This document shows positions 24,329-51,250 of a stretch of DNA of 64,000 nt, in pieces (within the stretch, counting starts at the first letter, position 1; each line of letters starts with the position of its first letter). The DNA is taken from contig DGNO01000005.1 in assembly GCA_002389665.1 (NCBI GenBank), positions 21,258 to 85,257 of the forward strand, given 5' to 3'. The notes under the pieces are model-generated. The model was not told the origin of the DNA. It ran no database searches and saw only the letters and a program-made list of their open reading frames with translations. The DNA is from Rhodobiaceae bacterium UBA4490. Its GTDB lineage: Bacteria > Pseudomonadota > Alphaproteobacteria > Parvibaculales > Parvibaculaceae. The position numbers and the translations under genes are program-made.

Positions 24329-25690
24329 ATGAGCGTGGAAAGCGGCGCGAAAGTGGATGTCATTATCGTGGGTGCCGGCCTTGCCGGGCTGAAAGCGGCA
24401 AGGGAGCTGCAGGCCGCCAGCAAGTCCTTCGTTATTTTGGAAGCGCGCGAGCGGGTGGGCGGTCGTTCCAAGCCCGGTGAGATTGCCGGCCAGCCGATCG
24501 ACCTCGGCGGCCAATGGGTTGGCCCTCAGCAAAAGCTGCTTTTGAAAGAAGCCGCCGAACTCGGCGTCGAGACCTATCCGCAATATGTCAAAGGCAAGAG
24601 CCTTGTGGGCATGGACGGCAAGGTGGAGGCTTATGCAGGCTCCGTCCCCAAACTGCCGCTCTTTGCGCTGCTCGAACTTGCGCGCATCGAAAAGCGCTGG
24701 GGCAGGGAGGCGGCTGCCCTGCCGCCCGGCGCACCTTGGGAAGCGCCGCGGGCCCATGAATGGGACAGCCAGACGCTCGAAACCTGGATCCGCAAAAACA
24801 TCCGCACCCACGGCGCCCAGGAATTCGCCCGCATCGTGGCGCGGGCCGTCTTCTGCGCCGAGCCCAATCAGCTTTCCTATCTTTTCTTCCTGGAATATCT
24901 GCGCCAGGGCCATGGGCTGGAGGTGCTGATCGGCACGGAAGGCGGCGCCCAGGAAGCCAAGTTCCGCGGCGGCGCCTGGCAGGTGCCGAAGCGCATGGCC
25001 GACCGGCTTGAGGACCGCATCGTTTATGAGGCGCCCGTGCGCGCCATCGAGCAGGATGAAAGCAGCATTAAGGCCCATACGGATAAAGGCAGCTTCGAGG
25101 CGGCCTTCCTCATTATGGCAGCGCCTCCCGTTCTGGCCGGGCGCATTCAGTACAACGCCCCGCTGCCCGCCAAGCGCGACGCGCTTCTTCAGCGCATGCC
25201 CATGGGCTCGGTCATCAAGATTCATGTCGCCTATGAAAAGCCCTTCTGGCGCGCGCGCGGCCTTAGCGGGTCGGTTGCCAGCAACGACCGTATGTTCAAT
25301 GTCGTCTTCGACCAGAGCCCGGAGGATGAAAGCCTCGGCATTCTTGTCGGCTTCATGGACGGGAATCATGCGGTGGAAATGAGCCAGCGGGGCGACAATG
25401 CCCGCCGCGAGCAGGCGATTACGGACCTCGTGCATTATTTCGGCAAGGAGGCGGGCGATCCCATTGCCTATATCGACCAGGACTGGACGGCGGAAGAATG
25501 GAGCCGGGGCTGCTATGTCGCCCATATGGCGCCGGGCGTCATGACCGTCTTCGGCGACATCATCCGCGAGCCTGCCGGGCGCATCCATTGGGCGGGCACG
25601 GAAACGGCGACCGAATGGGCGGGCTATCTCGACGGCGCGCTGCAATCCGGCATCCGGGCAGCGGGCGAGGTAAAGGCAAGGCTGGGTTAA
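24329..25690 (+). CDS. FAD-dependent amine oxidase (flavin monoamine oxidase family)
   Basis: 453 aa. The Rossmann fold DVIIVGAGLAGLKAARELQ and the LEARERVGGRSKPG stretch give the FAD-binding start, and LGGQWVGPQQ is the MAO-type second motif. The C-terminal IHWAGTETATEWAGYLDGAL is the FAD-contacting end of the family, with a conserved Trp/Glu. It oxidises amines to imines/aldehydes with hydrogen peroxide; substrates range from polyamines and tyramine to putrescine. SpeD-speE, 425 bp downstream, makes a polyamine link attractive, but the adjacent TetR gene implies a separate inducer. Start choice has AAAGGA at good spacing. Confidence 0.88.
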   Translation: MSVESGAKVDVIIVGAGLAGLKAARELQAASKSFVILEARERVGGRSKPGEIAGQPIDLGGQWVGPQQKLLLKEAAELGVETYPQYVKGKSLVGMDGKVEAYAGSVPKLPLFALLELARIEKRWGREAAALPPGAPWEAPRAHEWDSQTLETWIRKNIRTHGAQEFARIVARAVFCAEPNQLSYLFFLEYLRQGHGLEVLIGTEGGAQEAKFRGGAWQVPKRMADRLEDRIVYEAPVRAIEQDESSIKAHTDKGSFEAAFLIMAAPPVLAGRIQYNAPLPAKRDALLQRMPMGSVIKIHVAYEKPFWRARGLSGSVASNDRMFNVVFDQSPEDESLGILVGFMDGNHAVEMSQRGDNARREQAITDLVHYFGKEAGDPIAYIDQDWTAEEWSRGCYVAHMAPGVMTVFGDIIREPAGRIHWAGTETATEWAGYLDGALQSGIRAAGEVKARLG

Positions 25691-25771
25691 CCGTCGCCCG
25701 TCGCCAAGTGTTGCCGACCGGCATTCACGGCAAAAACTTGCCCCGCAGGCCCCTCATTTGCAGAACGGCAA

Positions 25772-25799
25772 TTGACACAGGTTGCGCGGGGTCTTAAAC
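25772..25799 (+). promoter_or_regulatory. Candidate sigma70 promoter of speDE
   Basis: A perfect TTGACA (25772-25777) is followed, after 16 nt, by TTAAAC (25794-25799). Transcription from about 25806 would give a 5' leader of about 310 nt before speD. No better promoter-like pair is visible nearer the gene. Confidence 0.45.
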
Positions 25800-25912
25800 G
25801 TCCCCTCGAACGCAATCGCACGTGCCCCTTGCCGCTATCGGTTACGTAACGACGTACGCGTCTCACTCAGCAATTTCTGGTTCCGCACAGGCGGGCTGGG
25901 TTCCGAGGGAGA

Positions 25913-25945
25913 ATGCATATGCTTTATTTGAACGGTAGGGGCTAA
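25913..25945 (+). CDS. Candidate upstream leader peptide of speDE
   Basis: The frame has two ATGs (25913 and 25919) and ends at TAA 25943-25945. From the second ATG the product is MLYLNGRG (8 aa); from the first, MHMLYLNGRG. A GAGGGA Shine-Dalgarno (25906-25911) has a good 7-nt spacing to the second ATG. The last codons and the stop lie inside the left arms of the hairpins at 25935-25975, the geometry seen where translation of a leader controls RNA folding. It is too short for any homology test here, and translation is inferred only. Confidence 0.4.
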   Translation: MHMLYLNGRG

Positions 25946-25975
25946 CGCCCCCGATTACGCCGCTAAAGCCCCTAC
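25935..25975 (+). promoter_or_regulatory. Two mutually exclusive hairpins in the speDE leader
   Basis: GTAGGGGCT (25935-25943) pairs perfectly with AGCCCCTAC (25967-25975), 9 bp. The same left strand can instead form the short GGGGC-TAAC-GCCCC hairpin (25938-25951). The two cannot coexist. The stop codon of the upstream frame lies at 25943-25945, so a ribosome there would block both left arms. The Rfam speF leader of alphaproteobacteria should be compared. Confidence 0.55.
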
Positions 25976-26115
25976 ACCTTTATGGAAAAGGGCGCACGTG
26001 ACGCGGAGCGCACGCGAACGGCAAGCAAATCACCTTAATCGTGAATTTACGGCGGTCCCGACCGTGGTCCTTTGGCCCGGCGGCCCCGCGTCATCTACTG
26101 GTTGTGGAGAAGCCC

Positions 26116-26616
26116 ATGTCTTTGAACAATGGCCTCTTCCAATTGGGGATCGACTTGCAGCGTGGCTCAAGCAACACCCAAGCGGAAGTAATCGAATTCA
26201 AACCCTCTGTCGCCGAAGCCCCGCTTCAGGATGACGAGCGCAAGGATTTTTTCATCGAGCGCGACGGCGAACGTTTTGCCGGCACGCATCTGATCATCGA
26301 GCTCGTGGGTGCGAAGTTCCTCGACAGCCTCGAAAAGATCGAAGCGGCGATGCGCGAATGCGTGGAGCGGGCAGGGGCGACGCTGCTGCACATCCACCTG
26401 CATCATTTCACGCCGAATGGCGGCGTCTCCGGCGTGGCGGTGCTGGCCGAAAGCCATATCTCCATTCACACTTGGCCGGAAGCGGACTATGCCGCGCTGG
26501 ACGTTTTCATGTGCGGCGATGCCCGCCCGCATGAATGTGTCGAGGTGCTGCGCACGCATTTCACCCCCTCCGATGTGGTGGTGGATGAACTGCGCCGCGG
26601 CAAGGGCCTGGTCTGA
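26116..26616 (+). CDS. speD: S-adenosylmethionine decarboxylase proenzyme (bacterial type)
   Basis: 166 aa from ATG 26116; the open frame extends upstream to 26041 without a good start. It decarboxylates S-adenosylmethionine to supply aminopropyl groups for spermidine. The pyruvoyl-forming motif LAESHISIHTWPE is present: self-cleavage occurs at the Glu-Ser bond and yields the pyruvoyl cofactor. The Cys in VFMCGDARP is the conserved acid/base residue. An N-terminal extension of about 50 residues (to FIERDGERFAG) precedes the usual SpeH-type core. It is 15 bp before speE, so the two form an operon. The unusual leader upstream probably controls both. Confidence 0.95.
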   Translation: MSLNNGLFQLGIDLQRGSSNTQAEVIEFKPSVAEAPLQDDERKDFFIERDGERFAGTHLIIELVGAKFLDSLEKIEAAMRECVERAGATLLHIHLHHFTPNGGVSGVAVLAESHISIHTWPEADYAALDVFMCGDARPHECVEVLRTHFTPSDVVVDELRRGKGLV

Positions 26617-26631
26617 GCCGGAGGGCGCTTC

Positions 26632-27486
26632 ATGAGCGATGAACGCTGGGTTACCGAAAATCTGCATGATGGGGTGCGCACGGGCTTTCGCGCCGACAAG
26701 GTGCTTTATGAAGAAGGCACCGGCCACCAGCATCTGGTGATTTTCGAGAACGCGAAGTTTGGCCGGATGATGTCGCTCGACGGCATCACCCAGGTCACCG
26801 AGCGGGACGAGTTCGTCTATCATGAAATGATGAGCCATGTGCCGATCCTGGCCCATGGCGCGGCCCGCAAGGTGCTGATCATCGGCGGCGGCGATGGCGG
26901 CGTTCTGCGTGAGGTTCTGCGGCACAAGGGCGTCGAAAAAGTCACGATGGTGGAAATCGACCGCTCCGTGGTCGATATGTGCACCGAGCACCTGCCGATG
27001 ATTTCGGCGGGCGCGTTCGATGATCCGCGCACCAATCTCGTCATTGCGGACGGGGCGGCTTTCGCGGCAAACCCAGATGATCGCTATGACGTCATGATCG
27101 TGGATTCGACCGATCCGGTCGGCCCCGGCGCGGTGCTTTTCAGCCCTCAGTTTTACGCCAATGCCAAGAACTGCCTGAGCGAAGGCGGCGTCATCGTCAC
27201 GCAGAACGGTGTTCCCTTCGTGCAGGGCGATGAGCTGCAAGGCACGATGGGCGCGTTTAAAAAGCTCTTCCGCTCCTATGGCTGCTACCTCGCCACCATC
27301 CCGACTTACGTTCTGGGCTCCATGGCACTCGGCTGGGGAAGCGATAATTCCGAGCTATTGAACGTGCCGCTTGAAGTTCTTGAGGAACGGTTTGCCGCAC
27401 TTGAGGGTGAGACGAAATATTACGCGCCGGATGTGCATAAGGCGGCCTTTGCTTTGCCGCCCTATGTGAAGAAATTCGTCGTTTGA
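26632..27486 (+). CDS. speE: Spermidine synthase
   Basis: 284 aa, full family length. Transfers the aminopropyl group from decarboxylated S-adenosylmethionine to putrescine. Conserved elements: an N-terminal beta-strand domain (RWVTENLHDGVRTGF), DEFVYHEMMSHVP, the nucleotide-binding IIGGGDGGVLREVLRH, MVEIDRSVVDMC, and the active-site DSTDPVGPGAVLFS with catalytic Asp. SpeD upstream makes its co-substrate. The gene is in the second position of the speD-speE operon and convergent with the RraA-like gene (7 bp apart). Confidence 0.96.
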   Translation: MSDERWVTENLHDGVRTGFRADKVLYEEGTGHQHLVIFENAKFGRMMSLDGITQVTERDEFVYHEMMSHVPILAHGAARKVLIIGGGDGGVLREVLRHKGVEKVTMVEIDRSVVDMCTEHLPMISAGAFDDPRTNLVIADGAAFAANPDDRYDVMIVDSTDPVGPGAVLFSPQFYANAKNCLSEGGVIVTQNGVPFVQGDELQGTMGAFKKLFRSYGCYLATIPTYVLGSMALGWGSDNSELLNVPLEVLEERFAALEGETKYYAPDVHKAAFALPPYVKKFVV

Positions 27487-27493
27487 TATTTGC

Positions 27494-27997
27494 TCAAGCC
27501 GGCAGGGAAAGTTCCTTGGCGGCGACGATGATCCCGTCCCGGTCCGCGTAAAGATAATCGCCGGGGGAAATCGTCACGCCCGCAAATGTTACCGGCACAT
27601 CGAAATCCCCAAGCCCGCGCTTGACGCTTTTCTTCGGGTGGGCAGCCAAGGCTTTAACGCCGACGGCTTCCGCTTCAAGCTCGCCCCGGTCGCGCACGCA
27701 GCCATTGACCACAACGCCCGCCCAGCCGTTCTTTGCGGCAAGCTGGGCAAGATTGCCGCCGAAAAGGGCGCAGCGTTTGGAGCCGCCCCCGTCTACCACG
27801 AGCACCCGGCCCGCGCCTTCGCTTTCCACGGCCTCGCGCACTTTCGTGTTGTCCTCGAAGGTGGCGAGCGTCACCACCGGTCCGTGAAAGGCGTGTTTGC
27901 CGCCAAAATCGAAAAAGACCGGATCCAGATGGCGCAGCCCTGCATCCGGGGCATCGGCATAGGCATCGGAAAGATCCGTAGTTGCAAAGTCAGTCAT
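27494..27997 (-). CDS. rraA: RraA-like protein (HMG/CHA aldolase family; ribonuclease activity regulator)
   Basis: 167 aa. Features of the RraA/4-hydroxy-4-methyl-2-oxoglutarate aldolase fold: TTDLSDAY at the N-terminus, [35 protein letters not shown] (phosphate-like loop), then [14 protein letters not shown] with the Arg-Asp metal/ligand pair. The short length fits the RraA branch, which binds RNase E in enterobacteria; aldolase activity cannot be excluded, as the Arg-Asp pair is retained. It is a single gene, divergent from the monooxygenase gene at 28281. Confidence 0.87.
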
Positions 27998-28280
27998 GCG
28001 CAGGCCTCGTTCTGTGCTTATCGCTCAAGAAATTTTCCCGATAGATAGCAGCCATGCCCGTCTTTGTCCCGCCAAAGACGAGGGGAGAGGCCAAGAAGCG
28101 GTGGATGACGCGGCGTCCGTGGGGCAGGGTGTCGCGCTTTAACCCCGTTCTAGGGTGACATGCCGCGCCCTCTCCATCTTGGCCGTGAAACGCGTTAAAC
28201 TGGGTTCAGGGAATTGGAACCGTTTGGGGAGAGACGGCGCCAGGCCGCCGCCCAAAGCCCCAAGCAGAGGAGGAGTTGGA

Positions 28281-29804
28281 ATGGCTATGACCGACGCCCG
28301 TGAAAAGCAGCGCTCCGTCGCCATTATCGGCGCGGGCATGTCCGGCATTTGTACGGCGATCAAGCTGAAGGAAGCCGGGATCACCGATTTCACGATCTAT
28401 GAGAAAGCCTCCGAGATCGGCGGCACCTGGCGCGAGAACACCTATCCCGGCTGTTCCTGCGACGTGCCGCTGCACATGTATCAATTCTCTTTCGACATGC
28501 GCCCCGACTGGGAGCGCAAATTCGTCTTTTCCGCCGACATCAAGGCTTACCTTGAAAGCGTCGTCGACAAATACGGACTGCGGAACCATATCCGCTTCAA
28601 TTCCGAGATTGAGTCCTGCCGGTTCGATGAGCGCTCCGGGCGCTGGCATATTGGCTGCACCGACGGCAGCGCGCATGAAGCCGATGTCGTTGCGGCGGGC
28701 ACCGGCCAATTGCACCGCCCGCGCTGGCCGGGCATCAAAGGCGAGAAGAGTTTTGAAGGCGCGCATTGGCATTCGGCCGAGTGGAATCACGAGTACGATC
28801 TGAAAGGTAAACGCGTCGCCGTGATCGGCAATGGCGCCAGCGCCATTCAATTCGTACCGGAAGTCGCGAAAGAGGCAGGCGAGGTGACGATCTTCCAGCG
28901 TTCGGCAAGCTGGGTGCTGCCCCGCCCGCAGCGCGAGTTCTATGGCTGGGAGCGCGCGCTCTACAAAGCCTTCCCCTGGCTCATCAATGTGCAGCGCTGG
29001 AAGATTTACTGGTTCGGCGAGCTGCTCTTCCGCGCCTTCCACACCTCCGGCGACAAGATCAAGGACATGGCCATCGAGGAGATGGAGCTTTACGTCTCCG
29101 ACCCGGAAAAGAAGGCCAAGCTGACGCCGGATTATGAGCCGGGCTGCAAGCGCGTGCTCTTTGCCAATGACTGGTGGCCGGCCATGGGTAAAGATCACGT
29201 CCATGTCGTCACCGAAGGGATCGAGGAAATCTGCCCCACAGGCGTCAAAACGAAAGACGGCGCGCTACATGAATTCGATGCGATCATTTACGGCACCGGT
29301 TTCGACACGACGAATTTCCTAGGCCCCATGGACGTGACGGGGCTTGCCGGGCGCGAGCTGAAGAAAGAATGGAAAGACGGCGCGGAAGCTCATTACGGGA
29401 TGACGGTGACGGGCTTTCCGAATTTCTTCCTGCTTTACGGGCCGAACACCAATCTCGGCCATAACTCGATTATCTTCATGATCGAGTGCCAGGCGAACTA
29501 CATCCGTCAATGCGTGGAGAAACTTGGCAAAGACGACCTTCTTTATATGGATGTGAAGCCGGAAGCTCAGGCGCGCTGGAACGAGAAGGTGCAAAGCGAC
29601 AATGCCAATTCCGTTTTCGCGAGCGGCTGCACGAGCTGGTACAAGACGGATGCGGGCAAAGTGACCAATAACTGGGCGAATTACACGTTCAAATATTGGT
29701 GGTGGACGCGCCGGCCTGATTTTGCCGACTTCACGCTGCGCGGACGGCCGGGCAAAGAGGAAGGCGGGCGCGAACCCGCGGGCCGCCCCGTCGCCGCCCA
29801 ATAG
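28281..29804 (+). CDS. Flavin-containing Baeyer-Villiger-type monooxygenase
   Basis: 507 aa from ATG 28281 with AGGAGG upstream; earlier in-frame ATGs lack a site. FAD-binding GAGMSGICTAIKLKEAG and EKASEIGGTWRENTYPGCSCD are typical of cyclohexanone/phenylacetone monooxygenase relatives. The BVMO fingerprint FEGAHWHSAEW (F-x-G-x3-H-x3-W) is present, followed by the NADPH Rossmann stretch VIGNGASAIQFVPEV. It inserts oxygen next to a carbonyl, giving esters or lactones. Neighbours do not fix the substrate. A clean terminator follows at 29829-29855. Confidence 0.92.
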   Translation: MAMTDAREKQRSVAIIGAGMSGICTAIKLKEAGITDFTIYEKASEIGGTWRENTYPGCSCDVPLHMYQFSFDMRPDWERKFVFSADIKAYLESVVDKYGLRNHIRFNSEIESCRFDERSGRWHIGCTDGSAHEADVVAAGTGQLHRPRWPGIKGEKSFEGAHWHSAEWNHEYDLKGKRVAVIGNGASAIQFVPEVAKEAGEVTIFQRSASWVLPRPQREFYGWERALYKAFPWLINVQRWKIYWFGELLFRAFHTSGDKIKDMAIEEMELYVSDPEKKAKLTPDYEPGCKRVLFANDWWPAMGKDHVHVVTEGIEEICPTGVKTKDGALHEFDAIIYGTGFDTTNFLGPMDVTGLAGRELKKEWKDGAEAHYGMTVTGFPNFFLLYGPNTNLGHNSIIFMIECQANYIRQCVEKLGKDDLLYMDVKPEAQARWNEKVQSDNANSVFASGCTSWYKTDAGKVTNNWANYTFKYWWWTRRPDFADFTLRGRPGKEEGGREPAGRPVAAQ

Positions 29805-51103: not shown

Positions 51104-51250
51104 CAAAACAAAACCCGGCCAGCTTTTTCAAAGCTGCCCAGGCGAACGGCTTGGCCCTATGGCCCGATATGGTTCCGCGCTCCCTCGTGGTTCCCCACGC
51201 CCCTGCAAGACGATTGCCGGGTTTTCGCCAGTCACGCGGAATGCGACCGG
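51104..51250 (-). promoter_or_regulatory. ZTP (pfl) riboswitch upstream of glyA
   Basis: On the minus strand the conserved ZTP/pfl elements occur in order: GCGTGACTGGCG (5' part, near 51224-51236), GGGAACCACGAGGGAGCG (near 51180-51197) and CCGTTCGCCTGGGCA (51135-51149). The ligand is the folate-stress signal ZMP/ZTP (AICAR), and glyA is a usual target. A short AGCTTT/AAAGCT hairpin (51121-51135) follows, then a GGGTTTTGTTTTG tract. AAAACCCGGC just inside the aptamer (51216-51225) can also pair with GCCGGGTTTT (51110-51119), so the expression platform could be terminator-like. Confidence 0.85.

Follow-up and report, generated by a model that had tools for sequence, protein, structure and literature searches.

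Leaders of polyamine genes

Short open reading frames (ORFs) that encode sensor peptides precede polyamine enzyme genes in E. coli (speFL) and in mammals (the AMD1 uORF). The speF leader, Rfam family RF00518, has been described upstream of COG0019 genes, and at the 5' end of its extended form is a paired stem that carries a large insertion (Corbino et al. 2005, PMC1273637). In Bartonella and S. meliloti the speF leader is immediately preceded by the ar45 RNA; as of 2020, the function of the speF leader was unclear and ar45 was uncharacterised (PMC7717549). The odc1 (uORF-25-1) motif, an alphaproteobacterial ODC leader with a sequestered RBS and a short uORF, has been proposed as a possible riboswitch (Brewer et al. 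2021, PMC8632094). No account of a leader of the ar45/speF kind at speD or hss turned up in a search of open-licence papers, though such a search cannot prove that none exists.

The region analysed here is rather likely to be a cis-acting leader RNA of that kind, one that gates a Shine-Dalgarno (SD) sequence and is newly linked to speD and hss. The support is computational: homology of a 5' domain, association with genes, a stem that covers the SD (P5), a hairpin behind the start codon (P6) and a conserved small ORF.

The speD locus

The window is a stretch of 64,000 nucleotides from Rhodobiaceae bacterium UBA4490 (contig DGNO01000005.1), whose assembly has 6 contigs and 3.45 Mb. The features below lie on the + strand. 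S-adenosylmethionine decarboxylase is encoded by speD at 26116..26616 (TIGR03330, 129.5 bits against a cut-off of 75.65), and the protein is 99% identical over 166 residues to that of Tepidicaulis marinus (L001). The next ORF, 26632..27486, is putatively speE, spermidine synthase, and it has matches just downstream of speD in related loci.

A promoter-like TTGACA-N17-TAAACG is predicted at 25772..25800 (TTGACA 25772-25777, TAAACG 25795-25800, spacer 17 nt). By eye, relatives have TTGACA at a comparable distance; a sigma-70 consensus scan of 25300-28500 listed no site, this pair included. The predicted transcription start, about 25807-25808, is the 5' edge of the conserved domain and lies about 308 nt before the speD ATG (26116). 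A preliminary description of the region had proposed a TTGACA promoter with a leader of about 310 nt and a frame of 8-10 codons with its own SD, GAGGGA (25905-25910). Both are present, and the frame is kept in all 25 leaders aligned below. That description did not mention the conserved domain at the 5' side, the stem that sequesters the SD or the class-wide family of such leaders before ODC, hss and speD.

The stability of the whole 319-nt leader is not unusual (z 0.79; 77 of 100 shuffles are as stable or more so); its signal is conservation, not bulk stability. No intrinsic terminator is listed on the + strand between the promoter and speD. Elsewhere in the window, on the - strand, a ZMP/ZTP riboswitch occupies 51129-51245 (53.2 bits, cut-off 39).

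Conservation among speD leaders

Among 80 named speD loci, 24 have the conserved domain within 3 mismatches; their record titles are Tepidicaulis, Parvibaculum, Parvibaculaceae, Rhodobiaceae and unplaced Hyphomicrobiales or Alphaproteobacteria. Fifty-five loci, some incomplete (Kiloniella, Hyphomicrobium and others), have no match within 3 mismatches, and the contig of one Parvibaculum locus (L008) ends before the domain could be judged. R1, a covariance model built from 26 sequences with the RF00518-type loci L082-L085 excluded, found nothing convincing in the 56 remaining named loci (best E 0.28).

The window and its 24 relatives give an alignment of 25 leaders, some of them near-identical, all of which keep the 5' domain, the SD site, an 8-codon ORF with ATG and in-frame TAA or TGA, and a stop-codon hairpin, GGGGC-URAY-GCCCC. 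The order from 5' to 3' is invariant AACGCAATCGCACGTGCC, TAACGRCGTACGCGTCTC, a variable hairpin, the SD (CGAGGGAGA in 22 leaders, CTGGGGAGA in 2 and CTGAGGAGA in 1), ATATG or TTATG, and GGGGCTRAYGCCCC. In a second genus the leader is present at speD in 7 of 7 loci.

A motif close to the speD SD, CATCTACTGGTTGTGGAG at 26092..26109, is found within 4 mismatches in 74 of the 80 named loci. This CATCTACTGGTTGGGGAG-like motif occurs also in loci without the leader, no Rfam family accounts for it in the loci scanned, and on these comparisons it is a separate conserved speD element, apart from the leader.

A 5' domain homologous to ar45

The conserved domain occupies 25808..25862. Its helices are P1 (25810-25813/25858-25861), P2 (25816-25818/25850-25852), P3 (25823-25825/25846-25848) and a variable P4, and its conserved sequences are CGCACGTGCC and AACGRC. 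R1 scores it at 74.7 bits, and the ODC leader of the same genome at 59.5. Rfam, with the ar45 model RF02347 included, has no match at the window domain, and in the same genome RF02347 gives only matches of E 0.6-9, at other places. In a cmscan of ODC loci, RF02347 falls directly upstream of RF00518 in L082 and L084, where it has the same TCGCACGTGCC...AGCAACGACG core as the speD leaders. R1 in turn has a match directly before RF00518 in each of the four loci L082-L085 (E 0.001-0.05, in 91 kb); the Rfam ar45 scan covered L082 and L084, and L083 and L085 miss the E 0.1 threshold in a larger R1 search. The shared core and the P1-P3 layout recur throughout an alignment of speD, ODC and ar45 copies, by which bases 25808-25862 are homologous to Rfam ar45. 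The speF leader, named in the preliminary description as the obvious comparison, is therefore an apt one, since ar45 stands directly upstream of Rfam speF elsewhere, though a search with RF00518 itself yielded no match in the window at E up to 10.

In a wide set of 86 distinct rows, 9 of 17 domain pairs change on both sides (0 of 500 shuffles), in an alignment that was fitted to the model and so is biased towards it; with the first 26 sequences alone, the covariation score is equalled or exceeded in 290 of 500 shuffles. The minimum free energy (MFE) fold of the full leader contains P5 but not P1, so the fold of the domain rests on comparison and not on energy.

A predicted stem that hides the Shine-Dalgarno sequence

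The SD of the small ORF, GAGGGAG (25905..25911), lies in the 3' strand of P5 (25861..25912), in which the anti-SD strand UCUCACUC (25861-25868) pairs with GAGGGAGA (25905-25912) with one A-G mismatch, both in a fold begun at 25861 and in the full-leader MFE. The fold begun at 25861 has -17.8 kcal/mol, with 4 of 8 SD bases only 30-59% paired; when it is begun two bases later (25863), the window pairs differently. A possible extension of P5 (25858..25916), GCGU 25858-25861 with AUGC 25913-25916, appears in the full-leader MFE and excludes P1. All 25 leaders have [AT]TGC before TATG, and the bases of the extension are invariant and hence carry no covariation signal either way.

In 91 of 98 leaders, which are distinct and not independent, the MFE pairs four or more of the 11 nt that follow the domain with the SD region; the AUG was assigned by SD strength, not by pairing, here as in the ORF and hairpin comparisons below. 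A redundancy cut at 75% identity, applied for the control comparisons only, left 61 leaders, of which 56 have at least 4 such pairs; the mean is 7.49 of 11 nt. When strands were swapped among leaders (30 trials), the mean was 6.42 and the maximum 6.90, with at least 4 pairs in 43-54 of 61; shuffled strands (30 trials) gave a mean of 5.23 and a maximum of 6.07, with at least 4 pairs in 36-51 of 61. Shuffling all but the SD end left a mean of 3.68 pairs and an energy of -14.8 kcal/mol, compared with -18.0 for the real leaders. The shuffles used here, and for P6 and the 9-bp helix below, were mononucleotide shuffles. Since the real pairing lies above every swap and shuffle control, it is specific, though composition supplies much of it (about 6.4 pairs even after swaps).

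The four RF00518-type leaders L082-L085 fold likewise, each with its SD, GAAGAGG, in an equivalent long stem. They also have a conserved CUUGCC after this SD, reminiscent of the UUG starts described for odc1 (PMC8632094).

The small open reading frame

Behind P5 is the 8-codon ORF MLYLNGRG-stop (25919..25945), which could also start at 25913 and would then have 10 codons. The peptides of the speD leaders (MLYLNGRG, MSGSSLRG, MPDYSLRG, MAGSRPRG, MPTSSLRG) change at residues 2-6, and only RG-stop is fixed. The second genus has speD ORFs of 7-8 codons in 7 of 7 loci, started by ATG (MPFMRRQT, MPFPRRT, MPFPRRI) or GTG (PFCRRT, PFCRQT). Among 104 leaders with an assigned AUG, the AUG opens an ORF of 60 codons or fewer in 70 and a longer one in 34, mostly the ODC frame itself.

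Such ORFs invite comparison with sensor peptides. The preliminary description likened the frame to speFL and AMD1 and looked to conservation of MLYLNGRG as a check; the corresponding mechanism would be a ribosome arrested on the stop codon by nascent MLYLNGRG and a polyamine, with control of speD as the result. The fixed length in 25 of 25 leaders and the short ORFs of the second genus speak for it, as do four longer uORFs before ODC, behind the same element (L178, L179, L184 and L199, from three families), which share GR(K/E)NPLSS near the end. These four differ at synonymous third positions and so look translated and selected as peptides. Within the speD leaders, the fixed RG-stop overlaps the P6 stem; because nothing else of the peptide is conserved, sensing by the speD peptide was rejected as a candidate, and we regard the arrest mechanism as unlikely for this leader.

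Several other uORFs in ODC leaders have SSM or SSI a few residues from their C-terminus; these, and the uORFs ending in GR(K/E)NPLSS, are possible arrest peptides. Related 14-codon uORFs (MFGHMLAPPPRIER, MNGHAPAPHPRTNR and similar) are found in L202, L208, L210, L212, L222, L223 and L228, where five lead into homospermidine synthase and two meet the contig end.

Distribution and gene association

R1 matches 32 of 40 genomes of the family, 23 with two copies and 9 with one; the 8 genomes without a match include 6 of 7 of one genus and 2 of 2 of another. The source genome has two copies, at speD and at ODC, and the second copies examined precede ODC in 20 of 20 cases. In a further family, 5 of 5 weak matches are at ODC. 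Across the class, 74 of 385 alphaproteobacterial genomes match at E <=0.1 (64 at E <=0.001). A phylum set of 398 genomes, its non-class share unstated, has 14 matching genomes, namely the source and 13 of the same class.

From 92 listed places in the class, 68 copies were examined (L202-L242 partly hand-picked, second copies first). The downstream gene is readable in 65: 57 are of the ODC family, accepted on a forward tblastn match within 2.5 kb, 5 are homospermidine synthase, 1 is speD and 2 are other, so that polyamine biosynthesis genes follow in 63 of 65. Three of the 68 loci lie at contig ends (L202, L210, L215), and L203 has no gene assignment. The ODC-family genes are of two kinds, about 52-64% and about 31-37% identical to the ODC of the source genome; L181, of the second kind, matches solved lysine/ornithine decarboxylases. 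L222 matches solved Hss at 6e-172, and the other four hss loci are 75-81% identical to it. A diverged copy stands before speD-speE in L240. In L201 (1608-2489) the AUG of the element opens a class-I glutamine amidotransferase ORF, the sole identified non-polyamine gene in the 68 loci.

This association bears on whether the domain acts in cis. It might instead be the 5' part of a stable, Hfq-bound trans RNA, with a secondary role as a leader and with P5 a constitutive hairpin for weak translation. ar45 is reported to be expressed independently of speF in Bartonella and S. meliloti and to co-precipitate with Hfq in S. meliloti (PMC7717549), RNA has been detected at the RF00518/C45 locus of S. 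meliloti (PMC2873474), and TTTT occurs within 10 nt after P1 in 47 of 68 class copies. A U-run after P1 is absent in the window and in L001, and the examined copies stand almost only before polyamine genes and keep the SD stem, neither of which a trans RNA needs. A primary role in trans is thus improbable.

The stop-codon hairpin and the 3' part of the leader

The P6 hairpin, GGGGC-UAAC-GCCCC (25938..25951), pairs GGGGC 25938-25942 with GCCCC 25947-25951 and holds the stop codon UAA in its loop; the first paired base is at +20 from the A of AUG. A distance of 14-20 nt past the start of AUG is about that of the leading edge of an initiating ribosome. The best hairpin begins within it in 28 of 60 non-redundant leaders (60 of the 61 were taken), compared with a mean of 9.0 and a maximum of 17 in 200 shuffled trials, and the stems have many different sequences. 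In the other 32, the hss group among them, the best hairpin lies elsewhere.

One strand of P6 has an alternative partner in the window, as noted in the preliminary description, in which the position of a ribosome on the small ORF selects either the 5-bp hairpin or a 9-bp helix, GTAGGGGCT (25935-25943) with AGCCCCTAC (25967-25975), spanning 25935..25975. Both helices are indeed possible in the window, the energies being -17.0 kcal/mol for the hairpin with the 9-bp helix versus -9.1, and the full-leader MFE takes the 9-bp helix, a length equalled in 6 of 200 window shuffles. Of the two, the 5-bp hairpin is the conserved one; the 9-bp helix occurs in Tepidicaulis only (the window and L001) and was rejected as a conserved device. 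It has no counterpart in the remaining 20 of the 22 leaders compared, whose best partners for the 5' arm of P6 are 5-8 bp long and mostly no better than shuffles (the best are marginal: L015 19/200, L018 28/200). In 16 Parvibaculum-type leaders P7, GCCGAG/CTCGGC, follows instead, with two pairs changed on both sides and a covariation score reached by 1 of 500 shuffles. A choice between the two helices as the regulatory step is accordingly very improbable.

A P7/P8 multistem region lies 3' of the small ORF in the Parvibaculum-type leaders (L002-L061) and was not recognised in Tepidicaulis. RNAalifold of the speD-proximal part pairs the 5' strand of P7 with the speD SD, with weak support and not in the window. 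The free 3' arm of P6 was also considered as a partner of the speD SD (CCCCGG/UUGGGG) and rejected: inspected by eye, this pairing is broken in the window and several relatives, and the SD motif is kept in loci without the leader.

Proposed mechanism

The cis-acting leader preferred here would work as follows. A conserved domain of about 55 nt forms where the transcript is predicted to begin, and P5 behind it covers the SD of the next ORF. P5 would open in response to a signal at the domain, probably a polyamine, a related metabolite or a protein that reports it; the ribosome would then start at the AUG, and P6 would lie near its leading edge. The likely switch point, to judge from the fold, is the 3' strand of P1, which either closes the domain or extends P5. 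In many ODC leaders, that of the source genome included, the gated ORF is the enzyme itself. Here it has 8 codons and ends inside P6, so that the gate would determine how frequently ribosomes melt P6 and finish translation about 170 nt short of speD; expression of speD-speE could then be altered through refolding, access of Rho or mRNA stability. The signal, the direction of control and the coupling to speD are what we infer. By its gene association, the leader probably helps control polyamine production.

More tentatively, the ar45-like domain may be the aptamer of an unrecognised class of riboswitch whose signal is the state of the polyamine pathway, sensed for example as homospermidine, spermidine or decarboxylated SAM. 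It would control access to the neighbouring SD in odc, hss and speD leaders throughout Alphaproteobacteria as the 3' strand of P1 moves between the domain and the SD-hiding stem; at speD a minimal ORF that ends in a hairpin would act as a relay. The computed structure shares with riboswitches a conserved domain and an expression platform predicted to gate an SD. On the A. tumefaciens speF RNA six metabolites failed as ligands, a set that does not include homospermidine, norspermidine, SAM or decarboxylated SAM (Corbino et al., PMC1273637). If the proposal is true, the switch in speD leaders controls a ribosome, not the gene.

That the conservation reflects merely close kinship and composition is hardly credible: the named speD leaders do come from close relatives, the whole-leader fold is ordinary and covariation in the first 26 sequences does not exceed shuffles, but the domain is tied to polyamine genes class-wide, an association that strongly disfavours this explanation, and in the wide set it shows two-sided changes of its base pairs.

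Comparison with known systems

Together, ar45 and speF are an already known but functionally orphan kind of leader. As far as the literature searched shows, the associations with speD and hss are new, and so are the reading as a single module, the stem over the SD that the subtypes share and the very short ORF before speD. Such a module, made up of the domain, this stem, a start codon and often a hairpin, at ODC, homospermidine synthase and speD would make two orphan motifs into one regulon, and this reading gives a clear prediction about the signal. The source genome offers two copies side by side, one that would act directly on ODC and the other on speD via a tiny ORF.

Like speFL and the AMD1 uORF, the leader has a short ORF before a polyamine enzyme gene; unlike theirs, the speD-leader peptide is not conserved. 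With ar45 (RF02347) it shares the core CGCACGTGCC, AACGAC and a closing P1; ar45 stands directly before the speF leader of ODC genes, whereas the window domain fronts speD, has no U-run after P1 and is not matched by the RF02347 model. The RF00518 speF leader is likewise a polyamine-gene leader with an ar45-like domain at its 5' side and its SD in an equivalent long stem, and the source genome has a polyamine gene behind an ar45-like domain at both speD and ODC. It differs in that its covariance model does not match the window and in that L082, L084 and L085 have no AUG-started small ORF at the same place. The odc1 motif also has a sequestered RBS and a short uORF, but it is described with two UUG starts 2 nt apart, a conserved peptide of 11 aa and a pseudoknot, whereas the window ORF starts with AUG and has 8 codons; the available description of odc1 gives no ar45-like domain, and the comparison is one of description, not homology (PMC8632094). 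In the metA SAM-II riboswitch of S. meliloti, as described, an RNA domain similarly gates an SD while the protein starts further downstream; there the start lies 74 nt downstream, in frame with the first AUG, and the aptamer is a different one (PMC9373788).
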